Positions 3,220-28,063 of a stretch of DNA of 42,273 nt are shown in pieces. The position numbers and the translations under genes were made by a program. Within the stretch, counting starts at the first letter, position 1. Each line of letters begins with the position of its first letter. This DNA is from Bacteroidota bacterium (GTDB lineage Bacteria; Bacteroidota; Bacteroidia; AKYH767-A; JABDAW01), in NCBI GenBank assembly GCA_013288905.1, contig JABDAW010000004.1, forward strand, positions 1 through 42,273, read 5' to 3'. Under the pieces are notes generated by a model. That model was not told the origin of the DNA. It did not search any database and worked only from the letters and a program-made list of their open reading frames with translations.

Positions 3220-3431
3220 ATCGAGAAGCAGATTTTGGGGCTTGAAATGTTTAAGTAATTCGATAATAAAAAAGGACATTTTTAATTTATTCCCCAAAAT
3301 ATCTTTCCTCGAATGAAGAATAATGTCCGGAATAATACTGCTGTTTTATTCATGGCAGCTCCCAGAAAAAGGAGCAGCTATTAATAAATCAGCAAAGGAA
3401 ACAGTATGAAAGAAATAAATACGACCCTAAC

Positions 3432-3641
3432 TTCAATTGGGGTCGTACTTTCTTTAATTGGGGTCGTACTTTCTTCAATTGGGGTCGTACTTTCTTCAAT
3501 TGGGGTCGTACTTTCTTTAATTGGGGTCGTGCTTTCTTCAATTGGGGTCGTACTTTCTTTAATTGGGGTCGTACTTTCTTCAATTGGGGTCGTACCAACT
3601 TCAATTAGTATCATACCAACTGCAATTAGGGTGTGGTTAAT
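3432..3641. repeat. Tandem array of 21-bp units (8 good + 2 decayed copies)
   Basis: Eight nearly identical 21-bp units of the form TT(C/T)AATTGGGGTCGTACTTTC fill 3432-3599. They alternate TTCAATT and TTTAATT, and one copy has GTGC for GTAC. Two degenerate units follow (3600-3641). An inverted fragment TACGACCC lies just before the array (3418-3425). Because 21 is a multiple of three, frames stay open on both strands (SSIGVVL, KKVRPQL, EESTTPI heptads), but none has gene-like flanks. Apart from the promoter at 3189-3219 and the palindromic element at 3732-3787, I see nothing else in 3163-3810. Confidence 0.9.
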
Positions 3642-3731
3642 GTCTCCGGCGGTCGGATTTTAGGTGTAAAACCCTCTGAAAAGGATAAAATCATCAGTAA
3701 ATACTCCATTAAATAAGGCACATTTTTTCTA

Positions 3732-10014: not shown

Positions 10015-10388
10015 GAATTCGTCAAAATGCCTCCAAAACCGTTTTATGCCATTGAAGAATTTGTCAATGAAATAAGATGGTTCTCTATTCGTATTGTAGA
10101 ATTTGTCAATGATGGTTAATAATCGGTTTTTGACACCCTGAAATTTTCGGATGGCACAAAACGGTCGTTGGGAAGCATCCTGAAGTTTCAGGATGGAATG
10201 CAACGGTCGTCGGGTATCACCCTGAAGTTTCAGGATGGCAGAAAACGGTCGTCGGGTATCGTCCTGAAGTTTCAGGATGGTAGAAAACGGTCGTCGGGTA
10301 TCGTCCTGAAATTTCAGGATGGTATAAAACGGTCGTCGGATGTCACCCTGAAGTTTCAGGATGGCATCCGACGGATTTTGAAGGCAAT
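10015..10388. repeat. Tandem array of 42-bp units with palindromic core
   Basis: Units begin at 10137, 10179, 10221, 10263, 10305 and 10347, exactly 42 bp apart. Each carries CCTGAA(A/G)TTTCAGGATGG followed by AAAACGGTCGTCGG. CCTGAAATTTCAGG is a perfect 14-bp palindrome (one central mismatch in the G variants). Outer decayed copies at 10015, 10057 and 10099 keep the same 42-bp spacing through GAATTTGTCAATGA or GAATTCGTCAAAATG. The copies are near-identical in the middle and decay outward. The array fills the 486-bp gap between the two POT genes; nothing else is seen there. Confidence 0.88.
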
Positions 10389-20837: not shown

Positions 20838-20917
20838 CGTTATTCGTTAATTGTTATTTGTGTAATCGTTATTCGGAACATTCCTAATTTATAATTCCTA
20901 ATTCCTAATTGATTTCG

Positions 20918-20992
20918 TGGGATGTACTGGACTCGAACCAGTGACCCCTGCCTTGTCGAGGCAGTGCTCTAAACCAACTGAGCTAACATCCC
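20918..20992 (-). tRNA. tRNA-Val (anticodon GAC)
   Basis: 75-nt cloverleaf on the minus strand with every stem perfect: acceptor GGGATGT/ACATCCC, D stem GCTC/GAGC, anticodon stem CTGCC/GGCAG, T stem ACTGG/CCAGT with loop TTCGAGT. Discriminator A; CCA is not encoded. The anticodon loop is TCGACAA, giving GAC (Val) at 34-36. Position 33 is C instead of the near-universal U, which is unusual. It is followed by thiL, and its 5' side faces the accessory island. Confidence 0.88.
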
Positions 20993-21010
20993 TTTTTGAT
21001 TTTAAGGGTG

Positions 21011-21039
21011 CAAAGTAAGTCATTCTTTTGGTAATTCAA
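21011..21039 (-). promoter_or_regulatory. Promoter of tRNA-Val (TTG-N18-TTACTTTG)
   Basis: On the minus strand TTG (21039-21037) is followed after 18 nt by TTACTTTG (21018-21011), 18 nt before the tRNA 5' end. TTACTTTG differs from TAnnTTTG at one base. The same TTACTTTGC also precedes hepT (21764) and the rhomboid gene (36839), which suggests that this variant is used in this genome. Confidence 0.45.
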
Positions 21040-21189
21040 CATAAGTATCTTTGAGAAAGACGTAAAGGTTAGTATTTTAAAGAGGAAAGGAAGACAGGGT
21101 AATGCTTTTTAATAGCAAGCTATCGGGTAGAAGTAATTATGAATGGTGAATTATACATTATGAATTGTGATTGAGGATTTATGAGACAG

Positions 21190-21546
21190 GATGCAAGAAC
21201 AACCAACCCGATCGCAAGAACAATGCGCCCGGATGCAAGAACAATGAAACAGGATGCAAGAATAACCAATGCGGTTGTTAGAACAATGCGCCCGGATGCG
21301 ATAACAACTGGCGCGGATGCTTAACTAATGCCCGTGAGTGCTTAAACAATGAAACCGGATGCTTAACCAACCGCCGCGACTGCAAAAACAATCGCTGCGG
21401 GTGCTCCACCAACGGACCCGACTGCAAAAACAATCGCCGCGGATGCTCTACCAACGGACCCGGATGCAAGAACAACGAAACAGGATGCTCCACCAACCGC
21501 CGCGACTGCAAGAACAACCGCCGCGACTGCTCCACCAAGCAAAAAT
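21190..21546. repeat. Tandem array of 17 units of 21 bp
   Basis: Seventeen consecutive 21-bp units run without a phase slip from 21190 to 21546. The general form is GATGC(AAGAACAA or TCCACCAA)C..CCG; the later half tends to alternate AAAAACAAT/AAGAACAAC and TCCACCAAC types, a 42-bp higher-order pattern. Units are only moderately similar (CCAACCCG, GCGCCCG, GAAACAG, CGCCGCG endings). Frames stay open on both strands (LFLQSRRLVEHP; RLQKQSPRMLYQ). It sits in the 793-bp gap between tRNA-Val and hepT. Outside the array, the tRNA promoter, the direct repeat and the hepT -7 box I see nothing in the gap. Confidence 0.88.
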
Positions 21547-21604
21547 CCTGAAATGAAAACAGTGATTGTAACTTGTTGATATTCAATTAAAATACCATTT
21601 TTTT

Positions 21605-21697
21605 GAGGGTAAATATCGGGGATTTTTGTGTTTTTTATTTTGTAAATTTTTTCGGTGGGGTTTTCTGGATTTTTTTAGAAATGGTTCTTGAGAAATT
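21605..21697 (+). repeat. ~90-bp direct repeat, left copy (upstream of hepT)
   Basis: Begins GAGGGTAAATATCGGGGATT and contains a 36-bp core (21631-21666) identical to 22534-22569; the rest matches at roughly 80%. It ends about 90 bp before the hepT start. The right copy starts at the mntA stop codon, so the TA pair is bracketed by the two copies, 903 bp apart. Confidence 0.85.
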
Positions 21698-21763
21698 TTG
21701 GGAAACTTGAAAATTGCGAGATTTTGATTTACTTTAATATATCATCATCTCCATAAGTTTTAG

Positions 21764-21771
21764 TTACTTTG
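21764..21771 (+). promoter_or_regulatory. -7-like box (TTACTTTG) of hepT/mntA
   Basis: TTACTTTG followed by CA lies 14 nt before the ATG at 21786. Same variant as at the tRNA-Val promoter. No TTTG at 17-23 nt upstream. Confidence 0.35.
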
Positions 21772-21785
21772 CACAAATTAAAACT

Positions 21786-22187
21786 ATGGACGAAATAAAT
21801 ATTCGCTGGCAATTGAGGCTTGAGAAATTTGTTGATGCTCTCAAAACTATCGAAGATGTTTTGCCTCGATATAAGGAGATGAATGAACTGGAAAAAGACG
21901 GATTGATTCAACGTTTTGAATTCACTTTTGATATTGGATGGAAAGTTATGCAGGACTACCTCAAGAGTGCCGGATACATTGACAAAAAAGGTCCAAGACT
22001 GGTTCTTGAGCAGATGGCAAAAGACGGGTTCATTGATCCTTTTATTTGGGCAGATATTTTGGTAGCTCGCAATGACTTCTCTCACACCTACAATCAATCT
22101 TTAAGCCGCAGTCATCTTGATAAAATAGTTTATGATTTTGTCCCTGCTTTCATTGAGTTTAAAACCAAAATGCATGAATTGATATGA
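21786..22187 (+). CDS. hepT: HepT-like HEPN toxin (HI0074 / NTase substrate-binding family)
   Basis: 133 aa, all-helical. The motif RNDFSHTY (Arg95, His100, Tyr102) is the R-x4-H-x-Y signature of HepT HEPN ribonuclease toxins, and the body (IQRFEFTFDIGWKVMQDYL, GPRLVLEQMAKDGFID) matches the HI0074 nucleotidyltransferase-partner family. In characterised type VII systems the MNT partner AMPylates the Tyr of this motif to silence the toxin; all three key residues are present. Its stop overlaps the mntA start as ATGA. It is bracketed by ~90-bp direct repeats and precedes the GHKL operon on the same strand. Confidence 0.88.
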   Translation: MDEINIRWQLRLEKFVDALKTIEDVLPRYKEMNELEKDGLIQRFEFTFDIGWKVMQDYLKSAGYIDKKGPRLVLEQMAKDGFIDPFIWADILVARNDFSHTYNQSLSRSHLDKIVYDFVPAFIEFKTKMHELI

Positions 22188-22510
22188 TAACTTATCAGAC
22201 AAATGAATACGGTTTGCGAGACAAGGATATGGAATTCATGCTTCGTTTGTATGAATCAATGCCTGCTATCGAAAAGGTCATTCTCTATGGCAGCCGTGCC
22301 ACAGGAGCTTATGAAAAAGGGTCGGATATAGATTTAGCTATCGTGGGACATGAAATTTCAAACAATGATATTTCCAAAATAAATACTCTTTTGGAAAATG
22401 ACAAGCCATCACTTTTATCCTATAGTGTAATTCACTACGACACAATAAATAACGAAAAACTCAAACATCAGATAGATAAGTTTGGTAAAATTATTTATCA
22501 AAAAGATTAG
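22184..22510 (+). CDS. mntA: MntA-like nucleotidyltransferase antitoxin
   Basis: 108 aa, minimal nucleotidyltransferase. VILYGSRATGAYEKGSDIDL carries GSRATG (36-41) and the catalytic Asp pair D48/D50. Translationally coupled to hepT by a 4-nt overlap. From the family, it should AMPylate and neutralise HepT. The stop codon (22508-22510) is the first part of the right-hand direct repeat. Confidence 0.88.
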   Translation: MITYQTNEYGLRDKDMEFMLRLYESMPAIEKVILYGSRATGAYEKGSDIDLAIVGHEISNNDISKINTLLENDKPSLLSYSVIHYDTINNEKLKHQIDKFGKIIYQKD

Positions 22511-22598
22511 GGTAAATACTGGTGATTTTTTTATTTTTTATTTTGTAAATTTTTTCGGTGGGGTTTTCTTGAATTTTTGGAAATAGTTCTGGAGAAAA
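22508..22598 (+). repeat. ~90-bp direct repeat, right copy (upstream of the GHKL operon)
   Basis: Starts with the mntA stop (TAGGGTAAATACTGGTGATT) and includes the 36-bp core 22534-22569, identical to 21631-21666. Each copy lies at a similar distance upstream of a module: 120 bp from the core to hepT, 135 bp to the GHKL gene. It may be a duplication or insertion boundary, or a shared upstream sequence. Confidence 0.85.
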
Positions 22599-22678
22599 CA
22601 TGTTATAGCTCTTTAGACGCAATATGTTTTTATAGATAATAAAATCAATAGGCATAATCTCATTTGTTTTGGTTTGCG

Positions 22679-22686
22679 TATTTTTG
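22679..22686 (+). promoter_or_regulatory. -7 box (TATTTTTG) of the GHKL operon
   Basis: TATTTTTG fits TAnnTTTG and is followed by CGACC. The start of transcription would be near 22693, which lies after the ATG at 22674 and before that at 22704. This is why I take 22704 as the translation start. The best upstream TTTG (22663) is only 12 nt away, so the -33 part is unclear. Confidence 0.45.
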
Positions 22687-22703
22687 CGACCTATAAAATA
22701 AAT

Positions 22704-25250
22704 ATGGCTAAAATATCCTTTACGGTTTCGGCAAGAGCAGCAAGGCTTATAGGCAGAGAAAATGTTGCTAACGCAGAAGGTGCAGTAACAGAATTGGTTA
22801 AAAATGGATATGACGCTGATGCAAATGTTTCTTTAGTTTATTTTGACAATAAATATTACACACCTCCTGAAGAAATAACTATCTCCGATTTTAAGAAATT
22901 AAAGTCAGAGTTAGAGTTAGAAAATGAACCTGAGATTTTTGTTCTGCTTGCAAGTACTTATACAAATGCAAATTTTGGAAAGTATATTCTTAATGATAAT
23001 ATTGACGATGCAAAATGGGAAAGATTGAGTAAATTATTTAAGAGTAGGTGTTCTATTTATATATTTGATAGTGGACATGGAATGACGCAAGAAGTAATAC
23101 AAAATTATTGGATGACAATTGGAACAGATAATAAAGAAAATAATATTACAAGCGATTTGGGTAGGGTAAAAACCGGAGCTAAGGGTATTGGGAGATTTGC
23201 ATTAGATCGCCTTGGAGATAAATGTAAAATGATAACAAAAACAACTTTGGGGGAATATTGTGATATTGAAACTAAAAAACTGTTTGAAATTGAAGGATGT
23301 ATATGGGAGGTTGATTGGAATGAATTTGAAGGTAATCAGAAACCTATTAATGAAGTAAATGCAGAATTACAATTATCCTCCAACGTAAATATTCCCCTGT
23401 ATTTAAAAGAGGTTATTAATGAGTTTTCTGAATGTGAAAAATTAGTTTCTCATTTTAGTAATAACTCTGGTACGGTTTTGAAAATAACAGGACTTAGAGA
23501 TGATTGGAACGATACTGCAATTGAAAAAATATACGAAAGCTTAGAAACATTAGCACCTCCACAAGAAGATAATAGTTATAAAGTATTTTTATTAAGTTCG
23601 CTTTACAAAAACAAGTATGGAGAAGTTAAACCTCCAATTGTTGAAGACTATGATTATAAATTGTATGCAAAATATAATAAAGATCATACTATTGATTTAA
23701 CAATTTATAGAAATGAACTCTTATATAGTAAAATTGATAAAGATGTATTCAATTTAGACAGGATGAAAGTTGATCAATTTTTACCTAAAACATTTATTGA
23801 TGGAAAATATTCTTATAAAAAACATGTTGGGGAACTTTTACCAGGGTTATCTGAATCATTCAAAAAATATAAACTTGACAATATTGGTGAATTCGATTTC
23901 TCATTTTATTTTGGAAAATTTGGGGAAGGACCAGATGAACGAGGGACAAGTAAATTTCCATATAAGGGTGTCAATTTAGGAGCAAGAAAAGAGTGGTTTA
24001 AAAAATTTGGTGGAATAAAAATTTATAGAGACGGATTTAAAGTAAAACCTTATGGTGAAGCGACTGGAAATTCTTTTGATTGGTTAGGATTAGGTCAACG
24101 GAGTTCGCAAAGTCCAACAGTAACTAAAATAGGTTATCATGTTCGACCAAATCAAGTTTATGGTATTATTAATATTTCACGAATAGAAAACTTAGATTTT
24201 AGTGATAAATCAAGCAGGGAGGGGATACAAGAAAATCCAGTTTTTCTTGTTTTCAAGGAATTGATAAAAAAAATAATTGAAGAATTTGAGCGAGATAGAA
24301 ATACAGTGATGATGTCAATTAAAGACATTTTTGATGAAAAAGACAAGGAAGAGATATTAAAGAATAGAGCAGATTTAATTGTTGAAAAAACAAATTCATC
24401 AAACAAAGAAGGGGAGTGCGAGGATGAAAAAAGAATATTGGCTCAAGCAGTTATATATTATAAAGATAGAATATCTGCTTTTGAGGAAGAACAAATGCTA
24501 TTAAGAGTGCTCGCTAGTACAGGATTGATTATTACTTCTTTTGCCCATGAACTTAATAACTTAACAGATAGAATTATTCCAAGAACAGATAAATTAAAGG
24601 AAATTCTTATTAAAGTCATTGATAAGATAAAATTAAAGGAATTGCAGGAGTTTGATAATCCGTATACTATTTTAGAAGATTTTAGAAATCAAGATGTGAG
24701 ATTAAGTAGTTGGTTGGGGTTCTCATTAGCGGCTGTAAGAAAAGATAAACGTGAACTTAAAACAATAGAAATTATAAGTTATACAAAGGAATTAGAAAGA
24801 TTATGGCATACGACAATGGAAACAAGAGGTATTGAATTTATAATAAATAGAAACATATTTGCTGAATTATACGTTGAAGGAAATCCTATAGACTTTGATG
24901 CCATTTTTAATAACCTCATAACAAATTCAATTGATGCATTTAAACGGAAAAAGAAACATAGTCCAATCGCAAGAAAGATTACAATCACCTTCAATTTAGA
25001 TAAAAATATTAATATTATTTATGAGGACACTGGACCAGGATTGGATGAAGAAATAACTGACCCGAATATGATATTAAGACCATTCTACACAACTAAAAGA
25101 AATGATGAGGGTGAAATTACAGGAACTGGGTTAGGAATGTATATTGTAAAAACAGTTATAGATCAATATAATGCGGAATTAGAAATTTCAAATAATCGCC
25201 CAGGATTTAAAGCCTTAATCAGGATACCCTCAAAAAGAAATCATGAATAA
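22704..25250 (+). CDS. Double-GHKL ATPase / histidine-kinase-like sensor of a putative defence operon
   Basis: 848 aa from ATG 22704; the in-frame ATG at 22674 falls within the promoter. N-terminal GHKL ATPase of the Hsp90/MutL/MORC kind: N-box ELVKNGYDAD (30-39), G1 box IFDSGHGM (120-127), G2 box TGAKGIGRFALDRLG (157-171). A long middle region (~200-530) probably includes an S5-like domain. The C-terminal kinase-like part has H-box ITSFAHELNNL (His615), N-box NNLITNSIDAF (736-746), EDTGPGLD (774-781) and GTGLGMYIVK (807-816). It lacks transmembrane helices and so is cytosolic. The next gene is a receiver-domain protein overlapping by 8 nt, which argues for phosphotransfer from His615. GHKL ATPases linked to restriction-modification genes are known (Iyer, Abhiman and Aravind). 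Exact role inferred. Confidence 0.85.
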   Translation: MAKISFTVSARAARLIGRENVANAEGAVTELVKNGYDADANVSLVYFDNKYYTPPEEITISDFKKLKSELELENEPEIFVLLASTYTNANFGKYILNDNIDDAKWERLSKLFKSRCSIYIFDSGHGMTQEVIQNYWMTIGTDNKENNITSDLGRVKTGAKGIGRFALDRLGDKCKMITKTTLGEYCDIETKKLFEIEGCIWEVDWNEFEGNQKPINEVNAELQLSSNVNIPLYLKEVINEFSECEKLVSHFSNNSGTVLKITGLRDDWNDTAIEKIYESLETLAPPQEDNSYKVFLLSSLYKNKYGEVKPPIVEDYDYKLYAKYNKDHTIDLTIYRNELLYSKIDKDVFNLDRMKVDQFLPKTFIDGKYSYKKHVGELLPGLSESFKKYKLDNIGEFDFSFYFGKFGEGPDERGTSKFPYKGVNLGARKEWFKKFGGIKIYRDGFKVKPYGEATGNSFDWLGLGQRSSQSPTVTKIGYHVRPNQVYGIINISRIENLDFSDKSSREGIQENPVFLVFKELIKKIIEEFERDRNTVMMSIKDIFDEKDKEEILKNRADLIVEKTNSSNKEGECEDEKRILAQAVIYYKDRISAFEEEQMLLRVLASTGLIITSFAHELNNLTDRIIPRTDKLKEILIKVIDKIKLKELQEFDNPYTILEDFRNQDVRLSSWLGFSLAAVRKDKRELKTIEIISYTKELERLWHTTMETRGIEFIINRNIFAELYVEGNPIDFDAIFNNLITNSIDAFKRKKKHSPIARKITITFNLDKNINIIYEDTGPGLDEEITDPNMILRPFYTTKRNDEGEITGTGLGMYIVKTVIDQYNAELEISNNRPGFKALIRIPSKRNHE

Positions 25251-25731
25251 ATATAAAATTGCCTATATAGATGAAGTATCCGAAGATATTAGAGATTTTC
25301 AAAGATTTGCGAGCGATATTTTTGATGTTATTCCCATTCTTCCCATTGGTGGTGAAGATGGTTTAGATAAATTGCTCAATAGCATTTTGGAAAACCACAT
25401 TGATGCAGTTGTCGTTGATCATAATTTAATCGAATTTGATAAAACAGCTACTATCAACTATCTTGGGAATGATGTCGTTAATATGATTCTCGAAAGACTA
25501 GAAGGTTTTCCTGTATTTGTTTTGACTTCTTATGATGAGGATGCAATTGATAATAATGAAGATGCTAAGATTGTTTTTGAAAAGAAATTAATGTACGCAA
25601 GTAAGGAACAACCTGAGTTATTTGAGTCAGGAATTAAATTCAAAAAACTTATAAATAAGCAAATTGAAAAATATAAAGTGAGGCTTGAAGAAGCTGAAAA
25701 AAAAATTATTAGAATTAATAAACCTGAGTAA
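25243..25731 (+). CDS. Response-regulator receiver protein paired with the GHKL kinase
   Basis: 162 aa in this frame. Receiver (REC) fold: acidic pair D10/E11 in IAYIDE, phospho-acceptor Asp59 in DAVVVDHN, Thr95 in VFVLTS, and Lys114 or Lys115 in VFEKK. These are the full set of REC active-site residues, so it should be phosphorylatable. After ~residue 130 the sequence becomes a helix (KLINKQIEKYKVRLEEAEKK) that is cut off by a stop soon after a run of nine A (25697-25705). In the +1 frame the helix continues smoothly as the next ORF, so the true protein may be ~225 aa. There is no DNA-binding domain; output is likely by protein contact. Its ATG overlaps the kinase stop by 8 nt. Confidence 0.8.
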   Translation: MNKYKIAYIDEVSEDIRDFQRFASDIFDVIPILPIGGEDGLDKLLNSILENHIDAVVVDHNLIEFDKTATINYLGNDVVNMILERLEGFPVFVLTSYDEDAIDNNEDAKIVFEKKLMYASKEQPELFESGIKFKKLINKQIEKYKVRLEEAEKKIIRINKPE

Positions 25732-25918
25732 GGAAAGGCAACTTGATGCATTTGAGGAACAGGAGTTGATAAAATTAGATGGCGAGATAGAAAGATCTTT
25801 AGACAAAGAAAGCCAAATACCTGATAAAGTCCGTAAAATGATTGAAGAAGACAAGCTATCGGAATTATTGAACAAGGTGGATGATTTAGCAAAGAAATTA
25901 GGCTCAACCAATGAGTGA
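25685..25918 (+). CDS. Coiled-coil ORF, probably the frameshifted tail of the response regulator
   Basis: 77 codons, opened by TTG at 25685 and without an ATG for the first 50 codons; it overlaps the receiver gene by 47 nt. It is charged and helical: KERQLDAFEEQELIKLDGEI, then IPDKVRKMIEED and KLSELLNKVDDLAKKLG. Read across the A9 run at 25697-25705 with one A fewer, RLEEAEKK joins directly to LLELINLSKERQ, a seamless coiled coil. I therefore think that this is not an independent gene but the C-terminus of the regulator, reached by slippage or separated by a sequence error. It overlaps the HNH gene start by 8 nt. Confidence 0.6.
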   Translation: MKKLKKKLLELINLSKERQLDAFEEQELIKLDGEIERSLDKESQIPDKVRKMIEEDKLSELLNKVDDLAKKLGSTNE

Positions 25919-26471
25919 ATTAGTATTTAGAAATATAGCCCCTAAAAGAACTTATGTGTCGAAAGAATTATCGAACTATAGACTTTATAAGGATTTTCTT
26001 GCAAAAGATTTCAATAAAAGATGCGGATATACAGATTGTGATCAATTTTGGTTTGGAGGTAAAAGAAATTTTCAAATTGATCATTTCAAACCAAAATCAA
26101 TACATCCTGAACTTGAGAGGTCATATTCCAACCTAGTTTATTCATGTTCCTATGTAAACCGTGCAAAGAGTAATATTATTGGTGATTTCATTGACCCTTG
26201 CGACACTGACTATAACGAACATTTTTACAGAGATAATTTTGGAAACATTTATCCTAAAGACAGTTCAGTACCTGCAAAATATATGTATTTAAAATTAAAA
26301 CTATATCTAAAAAGATATGGGATTATTTGGACTTTGGAGCAATTAGACAAAACAATGGAAAAATTGATTGATTTGATTGATAAAACTGGGAATGAAGAGG
26401 CTAAAGATCTCTTAGTTGAAGTTACAAAAAAGTACAGAGAATATAAGCATTATTTGAGAGCTGAACAATGA
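25911..26471 (+). CDS. HNH endonuclease
   Basis: 186 aa. The treble-clef HNH core is RCGYTDC (37-43), NFQIDHFKPKS (53-63, catalytic D57-H58) and YSNLVYSCSYVNRAKSN (72-88, the N...N/K part). Similar HNH proteins act as effectors in ATPase-HNH defence pairs such as Septu PtuB. The C-terminal ~90 residues are helical (WTLEQLDKTMEKLIDLID) and unrecognised. In this operon it is the likely DNA-cleaving component, with the downstream methyltransferase as modification partner. It overlaps the methyltransferase start by 4 nt (ATGA). Confidence 0.83.
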   Translation: MSELVFRNIAPKRTYVSKELSNYRLYKDFLAKDFNKRCGYTDCDQFWFGGKRNFQIDHFKPKSIHPELERSYSNLVYSCSYVNRAKSNIIGDFIDPCDTDYNEHFYRDNFGNIYPKDSSVPAKYMYLKLKLYLKRYGIIWTLEQLDKTMEKLIDLIDKTGNEEAKDLLVEVTKKYREYKHYLRAEQ

Positions 26472-28063
26472 AAAACAATAAACTCATAGGCTCCTTTTAT
26501 ACACCAAAAATTATAGCTGATTTTTTGGTGGATTATCTTTCAAAAAAAATGAAAGATGGTAAGTTGTCAATATTAGAACCAAGTTCGGGAGATGGTATTT
26601 TTATTCATGCCATATACAATCATAAAACCTTATCGCCCAAAATCAAAAAAGTAGTTGCTGTTGAAAGAGAGGAAATAGAACTAAAGAAAGTTAGAGAAAT
26701 TACAAAAAGTAAATCTCTTAAAACAATACATTCTGATTTCTTAGATTTTCAAAATGACAACAAACAAAAATTTGATCTTGTGATTGGTAATCCTCCTTAC
26801 ATAAAGAAGAATCATTTGGAGGAAAGTCAAATAAAAATCTGTGAAGATATACATAGAAATGCTTCATTAGCAAATCAAAAAATTAAAAACCTCTGGACAG
26901 CATTCTTAGTTCGATGCATTGAGTTCACAGCCAAGGATGGAATTTTAGCTTTCGTTCTTCCATCGGAATTACTTCAGGTTAAATTTGCTGCCGAATTAAG
27001 GGAGTTGATTCTTAACGAATTTGAAAGAGTTGAAATCTTTACCTTCAACGAATTACTTTTCAAAGATTGTAAAGGACAAGATACACTATTATTAATTGGA
27101 GAACGAAAGTCAAAGAACAAAGGCATTTTCTATTGTAACATTACAGAGCTATCGGAACTTAAAAATGGGAATTTTTCTCTTCTTCAAAATCTTAAATTAA
27201 AAGAATCCAAGTGGACACATAGCCACCTTAGTAATGATGAAATTGAACTGCTGGAAAAATTAAAAAACAAAATTAAAACTATTGATTATTATTGTTCTTC
27301 AAAAGCTGGTATTGTAACTGCTGCTAATGATTTTTTCATTGTGAATAATGAAACATCTGAAAAATATTCATTGAATGGTTATACAAAGGAAATTATTCAA
27401 AAAGGGGTTTTTGTAAATGGCAGTGTAGAAATTACAAGGAACGATTTTAATAAATTAATAAAGGATAATAAACCTACTTATCTTTTGGATTTTACTAAAG
27501 GTATTCATAAAGAAGATAAGAGATCAATTAGCCAATATTTTGATATTGGATTAGTAGATGACATTCACACAAGATACAAAACTTCAATTAGAGAAAAATG
27601 GTATGTTGTTCCAAACATAGGTAACCCTCCTCAAGGCTTTTTCTTTAAAAGATGTAATGAATACCCTAAACTAATTAAAAATTCTGCAAGGGTATTATCT
27701 ACTGATAGTGCTTATTGGATTACAATGAGGGATGGTGGCAAAATTGAGGATTTAATCTTTTCATTTTATAATTCATTAACCCTATCATTTGCTGAATTGA
27801 ATGGACGTTATTATGGCGGTGGAGTTTTAGAATTGACACCAAATGAGTTTAAAGAATTACCAATTCCAACCAAAGCAATTTCAAAGAATAAGTTTGATAG
27901 TTACGTTCTTAAGTTTGAAGGCAAACAATCCATAAAAGATATTTGCAAAAAGAACGATGAAGTTATTATAAAGTCAATTGACAAGGATATAGATAAAGAC
28001 ACCATAAATAAATTGTTTTCAATACGGGAAAAGTTGTATTTGAGAAGGATAAAGACAAATTAA
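26468..28063 (+). CDS. N6-adenine DNA methyltransferase (Eco57I/TaqI-like)
   Basis: 531 aa. N-terminal GSFYTPKIIADFLVDYL (motif X-like), motif I ILEPSSGDGIF (35-45), VERE (65-68), HSDFLDF (88-94) and motif IV VIGNPPYIKK (105-114) define a gamma-class N6-adenine methyltransferase. The C-terminal half resembles a TaqI-type target recognition domain: WYVVPNIGNPP, a SFYNSLTLSFAELNGRYYGGG segment and ELTPNEFKELPIP. It methylates adenine in a specific site, presumably protecting the host from the HNH nuclease. No helicase or separate specificity subunit is nearby. It is the last gene of the operon and converges on the 28118 gene. Confidence 0.9.
   Translation: MKNNKLIGSFYTPKIIADFLVDYLSKKMKDGKLSILEPSSGDGIFIHAIYNHKTLSPKIKKVVAVEREEIELKKVREITKSKSLKTIHSDFLDFQNDNKQKFDLVIGNPPYIKKNHLEESQIKICEDIHRNASLANQKIKNLWTAFLVRCIEFTAKDGILAFVLPSELLQVKFAAELRELILNEFERVEIFTFNELLFKDCKGQDTLLLIGERKSKNKGIFYCNITELSELKNGNFSLLQNLKLKESKWTHSHLSNDEIELLEKLKNKIKTIDYYCSSKAGIVTAANDFFIVNNETSEKYSLNGYTKEIIQKGVFVNGSVEITRNDFNKLIKDNKPTYLLDFTKGIHKEDKRSISQYFDIGLVDDIHTRYKTSIREKWYVVPNIGNPPQGFFFKRCNEYPKLIKNSARVLSTDSAYWITMRDGGKIEDLIFSFYNSLTLSFAELNGRYYGGGVLELTPNEFKELPIPTKAISKNKFDSYVLKFEGKQSIKDICKKNDEVIIKSIDKDIDKDTINKLFSIREKLYLRRIKTN

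Follow-up and report, generated by a model that had tools for sequence, protein, structure and literature searches.

We analysed a 42,273-nucleotide stretch of DNA, hereafter the window, from a Bacteroidota MAG of 2.6 Mb that is 58.7% complete, so that all copy counts given below are minima. The window carries two short genes, hepT and mntA, the start of mntA overlapping the hepT stop by 4 bp, which are identified by family membership and motifs as a HepT/MntA type VII toxin-antitoxin (TA) pair (Table 1). The predicted proteins contain the RX4HXY and GSX10DXD motifs that define this system (PMC7641770), the second of them met by GSRATGAYEKGSDID, and the gene order and family membership are those of the HEPN/MNT system as well; as in that system, MntA would be predicted to adenylylate and neutralise HepT. 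The direct repeats that bracket the pair are a feature of the window, and the sections of PMC7641770 consulted make no mention of such a bracket. Searching genome_contigs by peptide patterns returned no close HepT relatives. GC content is ~35% around hepT/mntA, compared with ~40% in host genes and 29-30% in the operon downstream.

On the left, the site borders on the host gene for tRNA-Val, and the putative hepT promoter motif TTACTTTGCAC is also matched in inverted orientation at 21008-21018, upstream of this tRNA gene. On the right, the first three genes of the downstream operon (GHKL ATPase, 162-aa protein and HNH endonuclease) recur in the same order in five other, unrelated Bacteroidia genomes (L185-L189), with the methyltransferase sequence reached in three of the five; HepT/MntA stands beside them in none. 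Given this recurrence without HepT/MntA, we regard the operon as a unit independent of the toxin-antitoxin pair, and, as a whole (22704-28063), it is probably a defence or restriction-modification (R-M) system.

Table 1. Features of the HepT/MntA locus, in window coordinates.
Feature	Position	Strand	Basis
tRNA-Val(gac), host gene left of the site	20917..20992	-	ARAGORN; Rfam tRNA; thiL/tRNA-Val arrangement also in congener G001
Tandem array of 21-bp period, forming the left of the resident element	21181..21538	.	TRF; paralogous array on C97
Spacer between array and R1	21539..21605	+	95% identity with the C97 element over the initial ~56 bp, no conservation in the final ~12 bp
Repeat copy R1, right flank of the array element	21606..21695	+	repeat comparison
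TTACTTTGCAC, putative hepT promoter motif, close to the Bacteroidota -7 consensus	21764..21774	+	read from sequence, consensus
hepT, HEPN toxin, 133 aa, motif RNDFSHTY = RX4HXY	21786..22187	+	PF08780 E 5e-28; TIGR01987 above cut-off; solved HEPN toxins 8xdj/8yuf E ~1e-20
mntA, adenylyltransferase antitoxin, 108 aa, motif GS-X10-DID	22184..22510	+	PF18765/PF01909 above cut-off; NCBIfam MntA model NF047752 only below cut-off, E 7e-9; solved MNT antitoxins 8xeh/8xeo/7ae2
Repeat copy R2, without array or spacer	22509..22597	+	repeat comparison
TATTTTTG, match to the TAnnTTTG promoter motif, for the downstream operon (putative)	22681..22688	+	read from sequence
GHKL ATPase, first gene of the R-M-like operon	22704..25250	+	profile matches; homologues in L185-L189
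162-aa protein (RR of the GHKL-RR-HNH-MTase set), conserved second operon gene	25243..25731	+	tblastn in L185-L189
HNH endonuclease, PtuB-like	25911..26471	+	profile matches; L185-L189
M.Eco57I-type N6-adenine methyltransferase	26468..28063	+	profile matches; L185-L189

The apparently intact HepT/MntA pair is tightly bracketed by two direct repeats, R1 and R2, whose period is exactly 903. The initial annotation had described a ~90-bp repeat of ~80% identity; the length stands, but identity is better than claimed, at 87.8% over 90 bp (BLAST E ~1e-23 to 1e-26). Its 36-bp identical core (21631-21666 and 22534-22569) is an exact match and the longest exact repeat, compared with at most 16 bp in 500 dinucleotide shuffles of 21539-22720. 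The hepT ATG (21786) lies 120 bp beyond the end of the R1 core and the ATG at 22704 lies 135 bp beyond that of the R2 core, in agreement with the 120-135 bp given before, and R2 itself opens on the final two bases of the TAG that ends mntA (22508-22510).

The repeat, R, contains no gene-sized open reading frame, no terminator and no match to an Rfam family, and its RNA folding is not significant on either strand (z between -0.9 and +0.5); a known RNA or terminator was rejected as its identity. The initial annotation had noted that no transposase is present, which holds, as does the absence of an integrase, among the proteins scanned around the site, and no recombinase gene is encoded in the ~0.8 kb between R1 and R2. 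An IS or composite transposon, which would show a transposase or IS copies as repeats, was likewise rejected, R being without a gene-sized open reading frame, present in three copies only and matched in no phage, plasmid or viral contig.

A third copy, R3, which had escaped the initial annotation together with the larger element that ends in R1, lies on another contig of the same MAG (C97:4987-5077). No more copies turned up in other sampled genomes: searches of 60 relatives and 395 class members gave nothing but short T-rich chance matches, and the exact core had no match in genome_contigs. R3 and R1 form the right ends of two paralogous elements of ~480-520 bp each, composed of a 21-bp-period array, a spacer and R, beyond which the surroundings of the two loci differ altogether, whereas R2 has neither array nor spacer. 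On its right, each of R1, R2 and R3 is followed by sequence unrelated to that at the other two, and the sequence to the left of R2 is likewise unrelated. R3 is followed by a DUF4160/DUF2442 pair instead of HepT/MntA, an adjacency that depends on scaffolding across a 10-N gap immediately right of R3, and is thus a paralogous site without the module. Sites at which a single copy differs number six for R1, five for R2 and two for R3, and R3 is nearer to R1 and to R2 than these are to each other; the three copies thus stand in a star-like relation, and R1 and R2 are not a recent pair. Beyond R3, a fragment of the chaperonin (GroEL) C-terminus (L004:3523-4023) sits between the DUF4160/DUF2442 pair and a GHKL/C5-methyltransferase/Vsr set and may reflect either a duplication or an assembly effect.

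The initial annotation had also called for empty sites with a single copy. The only site of this kind seen is the paralogous R3; an orthologous one was found in neither of the congeners G001 and G002, both of which are without R, and their thiL/tRNA-Val and polA regions have rearranged neighbourhoods from which R is absent. It had further held that its reading would fall if R were widespread as ordinary intergenic sequence unrelated to module boundaries. This is not what we observed: there are three copies, all at the upstream edges of modules, although R1 does belong to a broader class of dispersed array elements.

This class is abundant. In the 1.52 Mb sampled of the genome that holds the window (G000), 190 tandem arrays were counted in all; at least 154 of these, each 100 bp or longer, show a period of 21, 42 or 63. 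They are mostly ~140-260 bp long and mainly intergenic, with their own unit sequence at each locus. Two further arrays of the exact 21-bp (42, 63) period class lie in the window, at 3431-3632 and 10137-10366. Array density per 10 kb is 1.0 in G000 and 1.9 and 1.1 in two congeners; beyond the genus such arrays are nearly absent, the corresponding figures being 0 for a family neighbour (93 kb) and 0.06 for other members of the order. At least 45 arrays fall into families with common flanks, with many pairs 77-97% identical, and one flank family is also found beside arrays in a congener (L092, G002), so that array and flank behave as dispersed elements in which the array sequence changes fast. 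A conserved right flank (consensus near AATGTCTCC...) accompanies different arrays at L147:6685-6951, L109:9258-9524, L072, L114 and L117, and likewise at window positions 3431-3673 and at L075, L107, L116, L158 and L092 (G002). Inverted arms of at least 15 bp were present at the edges of 15 of 146 arrays and of none in shuffles; in some cases the array stands between long inverted repeats that match perfectly over as much as 56 bp (L123:8594-8798, L137:10941-11132, L120:17745-17863, L141:867-1061), and such arrays could be invertible or form hairpins. These genus-wide 21-bp arrays look like a non-coding repeat class, of which the literature searched contained no description. The array element accounts for what R1 belongs to, not for the position of R2 at the mntA stop.

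We then asked how often HepT/MntA modules are bracketed in this manner. The survey took in 45 complete modules from Bacteroidota, that of the window among them, and looked for direct repeats with one copy to the left and one to the right. A long, tight bracket is a minority pattern, present in three of the 45: the window, L196 from another family (repeats of ~112 bp, 87% identity, spacing ~898) and L058 from congener G002, which belongs to the same repeat-rich genus (133 bp, 86% identity, spacing 930). The bracketing repeats of the three are unrelated to one another. Of the control windows, 0 of 356 from other genera satisfied the strict definition; within the genus 3 of 897 did so, and two or more of these three fall in one repetitive stretch. 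With the index window left out, the comparison is 2/44 modules versus 3/1253 controls (Fisher p = 0.011), and outside the genus alone 1/42 versus 0/356 (p = 0.11). As the strict definition was chosen after the window had been seen, the excess of brackets around HepT/MntA is suggestive, short of conclusive. A fourth module, L200, has a weaker bracket (757-804 / 2309-2352; 48 bp, 81%) and further repeats downstream.

The L196 repeats are informative about their own past. Upstream of the module, the repeat coincides with the 3' end of a long gene that occurs in 141 of 150 members of the family; downstream, it is another such gene end, carrying a frameshift. Since 8 of 10 differences between the copies in the coding stretch are synonymous (20% expected, p = 7e-5), the two gene ends diverged mostly as working genes before being brought together, which suggests that one of them came from another lineage together with the module. 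The L058 copies are without such a coding-type signal (8 synonymous, 8 non-synonymous differences).

Several known systems resemble this layout in part. Islands and prophages integrate at gene 3' ends, phage 21/e14 at icd being an example, and they share with L196 an incoming ~100-165-bp copy of the gene end, mostly synonymous differences and the two copies left behind; however, they encode an integrase and are far larger, whereas the interval here is ~0.8 kb and holds the TA pair only. TA cassettes also occur in integrons, whose gene cassettes are similarly compact one- or two-gene units beside a recombination site. In contrast to these, we found no structured attC-like site and no integrase nearby, and the repeat is a different one at every HepT/MntA locus; an integron-like or otherwise structured recombination site was rejected on the folding and protein scans described above. 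The nearest known kind is the insertion with long target duplication of R-M genes in Helicobacter pylori, for which PMC1643837 and PMC3031569 cite Nobusato et al. 2000. Both are small selfish or defence modules between long direct repeats, without a transposase, the repeat belonging to the insertion site. The window differs in carrying a type VII TA pair, in being from Bacteroidota and in that the copies are only 86-88% identical across cases; in addition, the coding-type divergence in one case, L196, points to a donor-derived homologous block and away from a fresh duplication, and the empty allele was not seen here, only the paralogous single-copy R3.

Taking these results together, we lean towards reading R1 and R2 as the junctions left by a non-autonomous HepT/MntA cassette that recombined into an intergenic site. 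The resident site would have been the right end, R, of an array-spacer-R element, and the module would either have brought with it a ~90-bp block with homology to R or have made a copy of R as it inserted, yielding R1-hepT-mntA-R2. On this account, the most economical one, integration would proceed by recombination of a ~100-bp block with the homologous sequence already in place; because no recombinase is encoded between R1 and R2, host homologous recombination or a recombinase supplied in trans is assumed as the enzyme, and the same repeats could excise the module. The bracket and its boundaries, R3 without the module, the independence of the operon and two analogous loci with unrelated repeats are observations; the direction and timing of the event, the passage through R and the capacity for excision we infer.

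The initial annotation had offered two readings of the repeats: they could be what the insertion or duplication of a cassette leaves behind, or a control sequence common to the upstream regions. An insertion footprint is the better supported, since R is rare (three copies) and always at the upstream edge of a gene module, since the sequences after the three copies are unrelated and the downstream operon is independent, and since two other HepT/MntA modules are bracketed likewise by unrelated repeats. Counting against it are the missing orthologous empty site, the restriction of the bracket to 3 of 45 modules and the fact that R1 flanks a dispersed array element, so that R2 could be an independent copy. 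The main rival builds on this last point: R2 would be a solo copy of a dispersed non-coding repeat, an array flank that landed between mntA and the GHKL operon or was left there after loss of its array, and the bracket would say nothing about the arrival of hepT/mntA. The abundance of arrays, many in families with common flanks, and the fact that R1 and R3 are themselves array flanks speak for it; yet R has three copies only in the genome, two other flank families are array-adjacent in 10 of 10 copies (these being the search seeds), which makes solo flanks atypical, the start of R2 coincides exactly with the mntA stop, and brackets also occur around other HepT/MntA modules. We therefore consider it unlikely.

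Recruitment of R before each module as a shared control or leader sequence strikes us as quite improbable, even though each of the three copies precedes the start of a module and all are oriented alike. Promoter-like TAnnTTTG motifs, identified by eye, follow R1, R2 and R3 at unequal distances (~69, ~84 and ~124 bp, the R3 figure spanning the scaffold gap), so that R probably lies outside the hepT transcript and is probably no part of a fixed-distance promoter. R also lacks significant RNA folding, a terminator and an Rfam family, and the brackets of the other HepT/MntA modules are unrelated to it, that of L196 being a coding 3' end. The duplication half of the original proposal, in which a classical target-site duplication or an in-situ tandem duplication of R would have produced identical copies that drifted later, matches the layout of the R-M insertions as cited in PMC1643837 and PMC3031569, but R1 and R2 differ by 12%, and the closer affinity of R3 to both of them disfavours duplication in situ. 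The mostly synonymous differences in L196 are, in turn, not what drift after duplication would be expected to leave, and we give this scenario very little credence.

It is conceivable, though rather doubtful, that HepT/MntA pairs, and perhaps other small TA modules, form a class of integrase-less cassettes spreading by recombination at homology blocks of ~90-130 bp that are specific to the locus; every cassette would bring along a donor-derived copy of its site, with bracketing repeats marking recent arrivals and decaying later. The turnover of TA and defence modules between genomes is rapid, yet many of them carry no mobility genes. Should the proposal hold, tight ~100-bp direct repeats with coding-type divergence would be a footprint for finding recent arrivals and their donors and for testing excision, and a phenomenon reported for R-M genes would extend to a HEPN/MNT TA system. 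Finally, congener G002 has another kind of R-M-like pair downstream of polA (L050:4131-6139), with a 21-bp array after it, so that defence systems may have a hotspot on the 3' side of polA.
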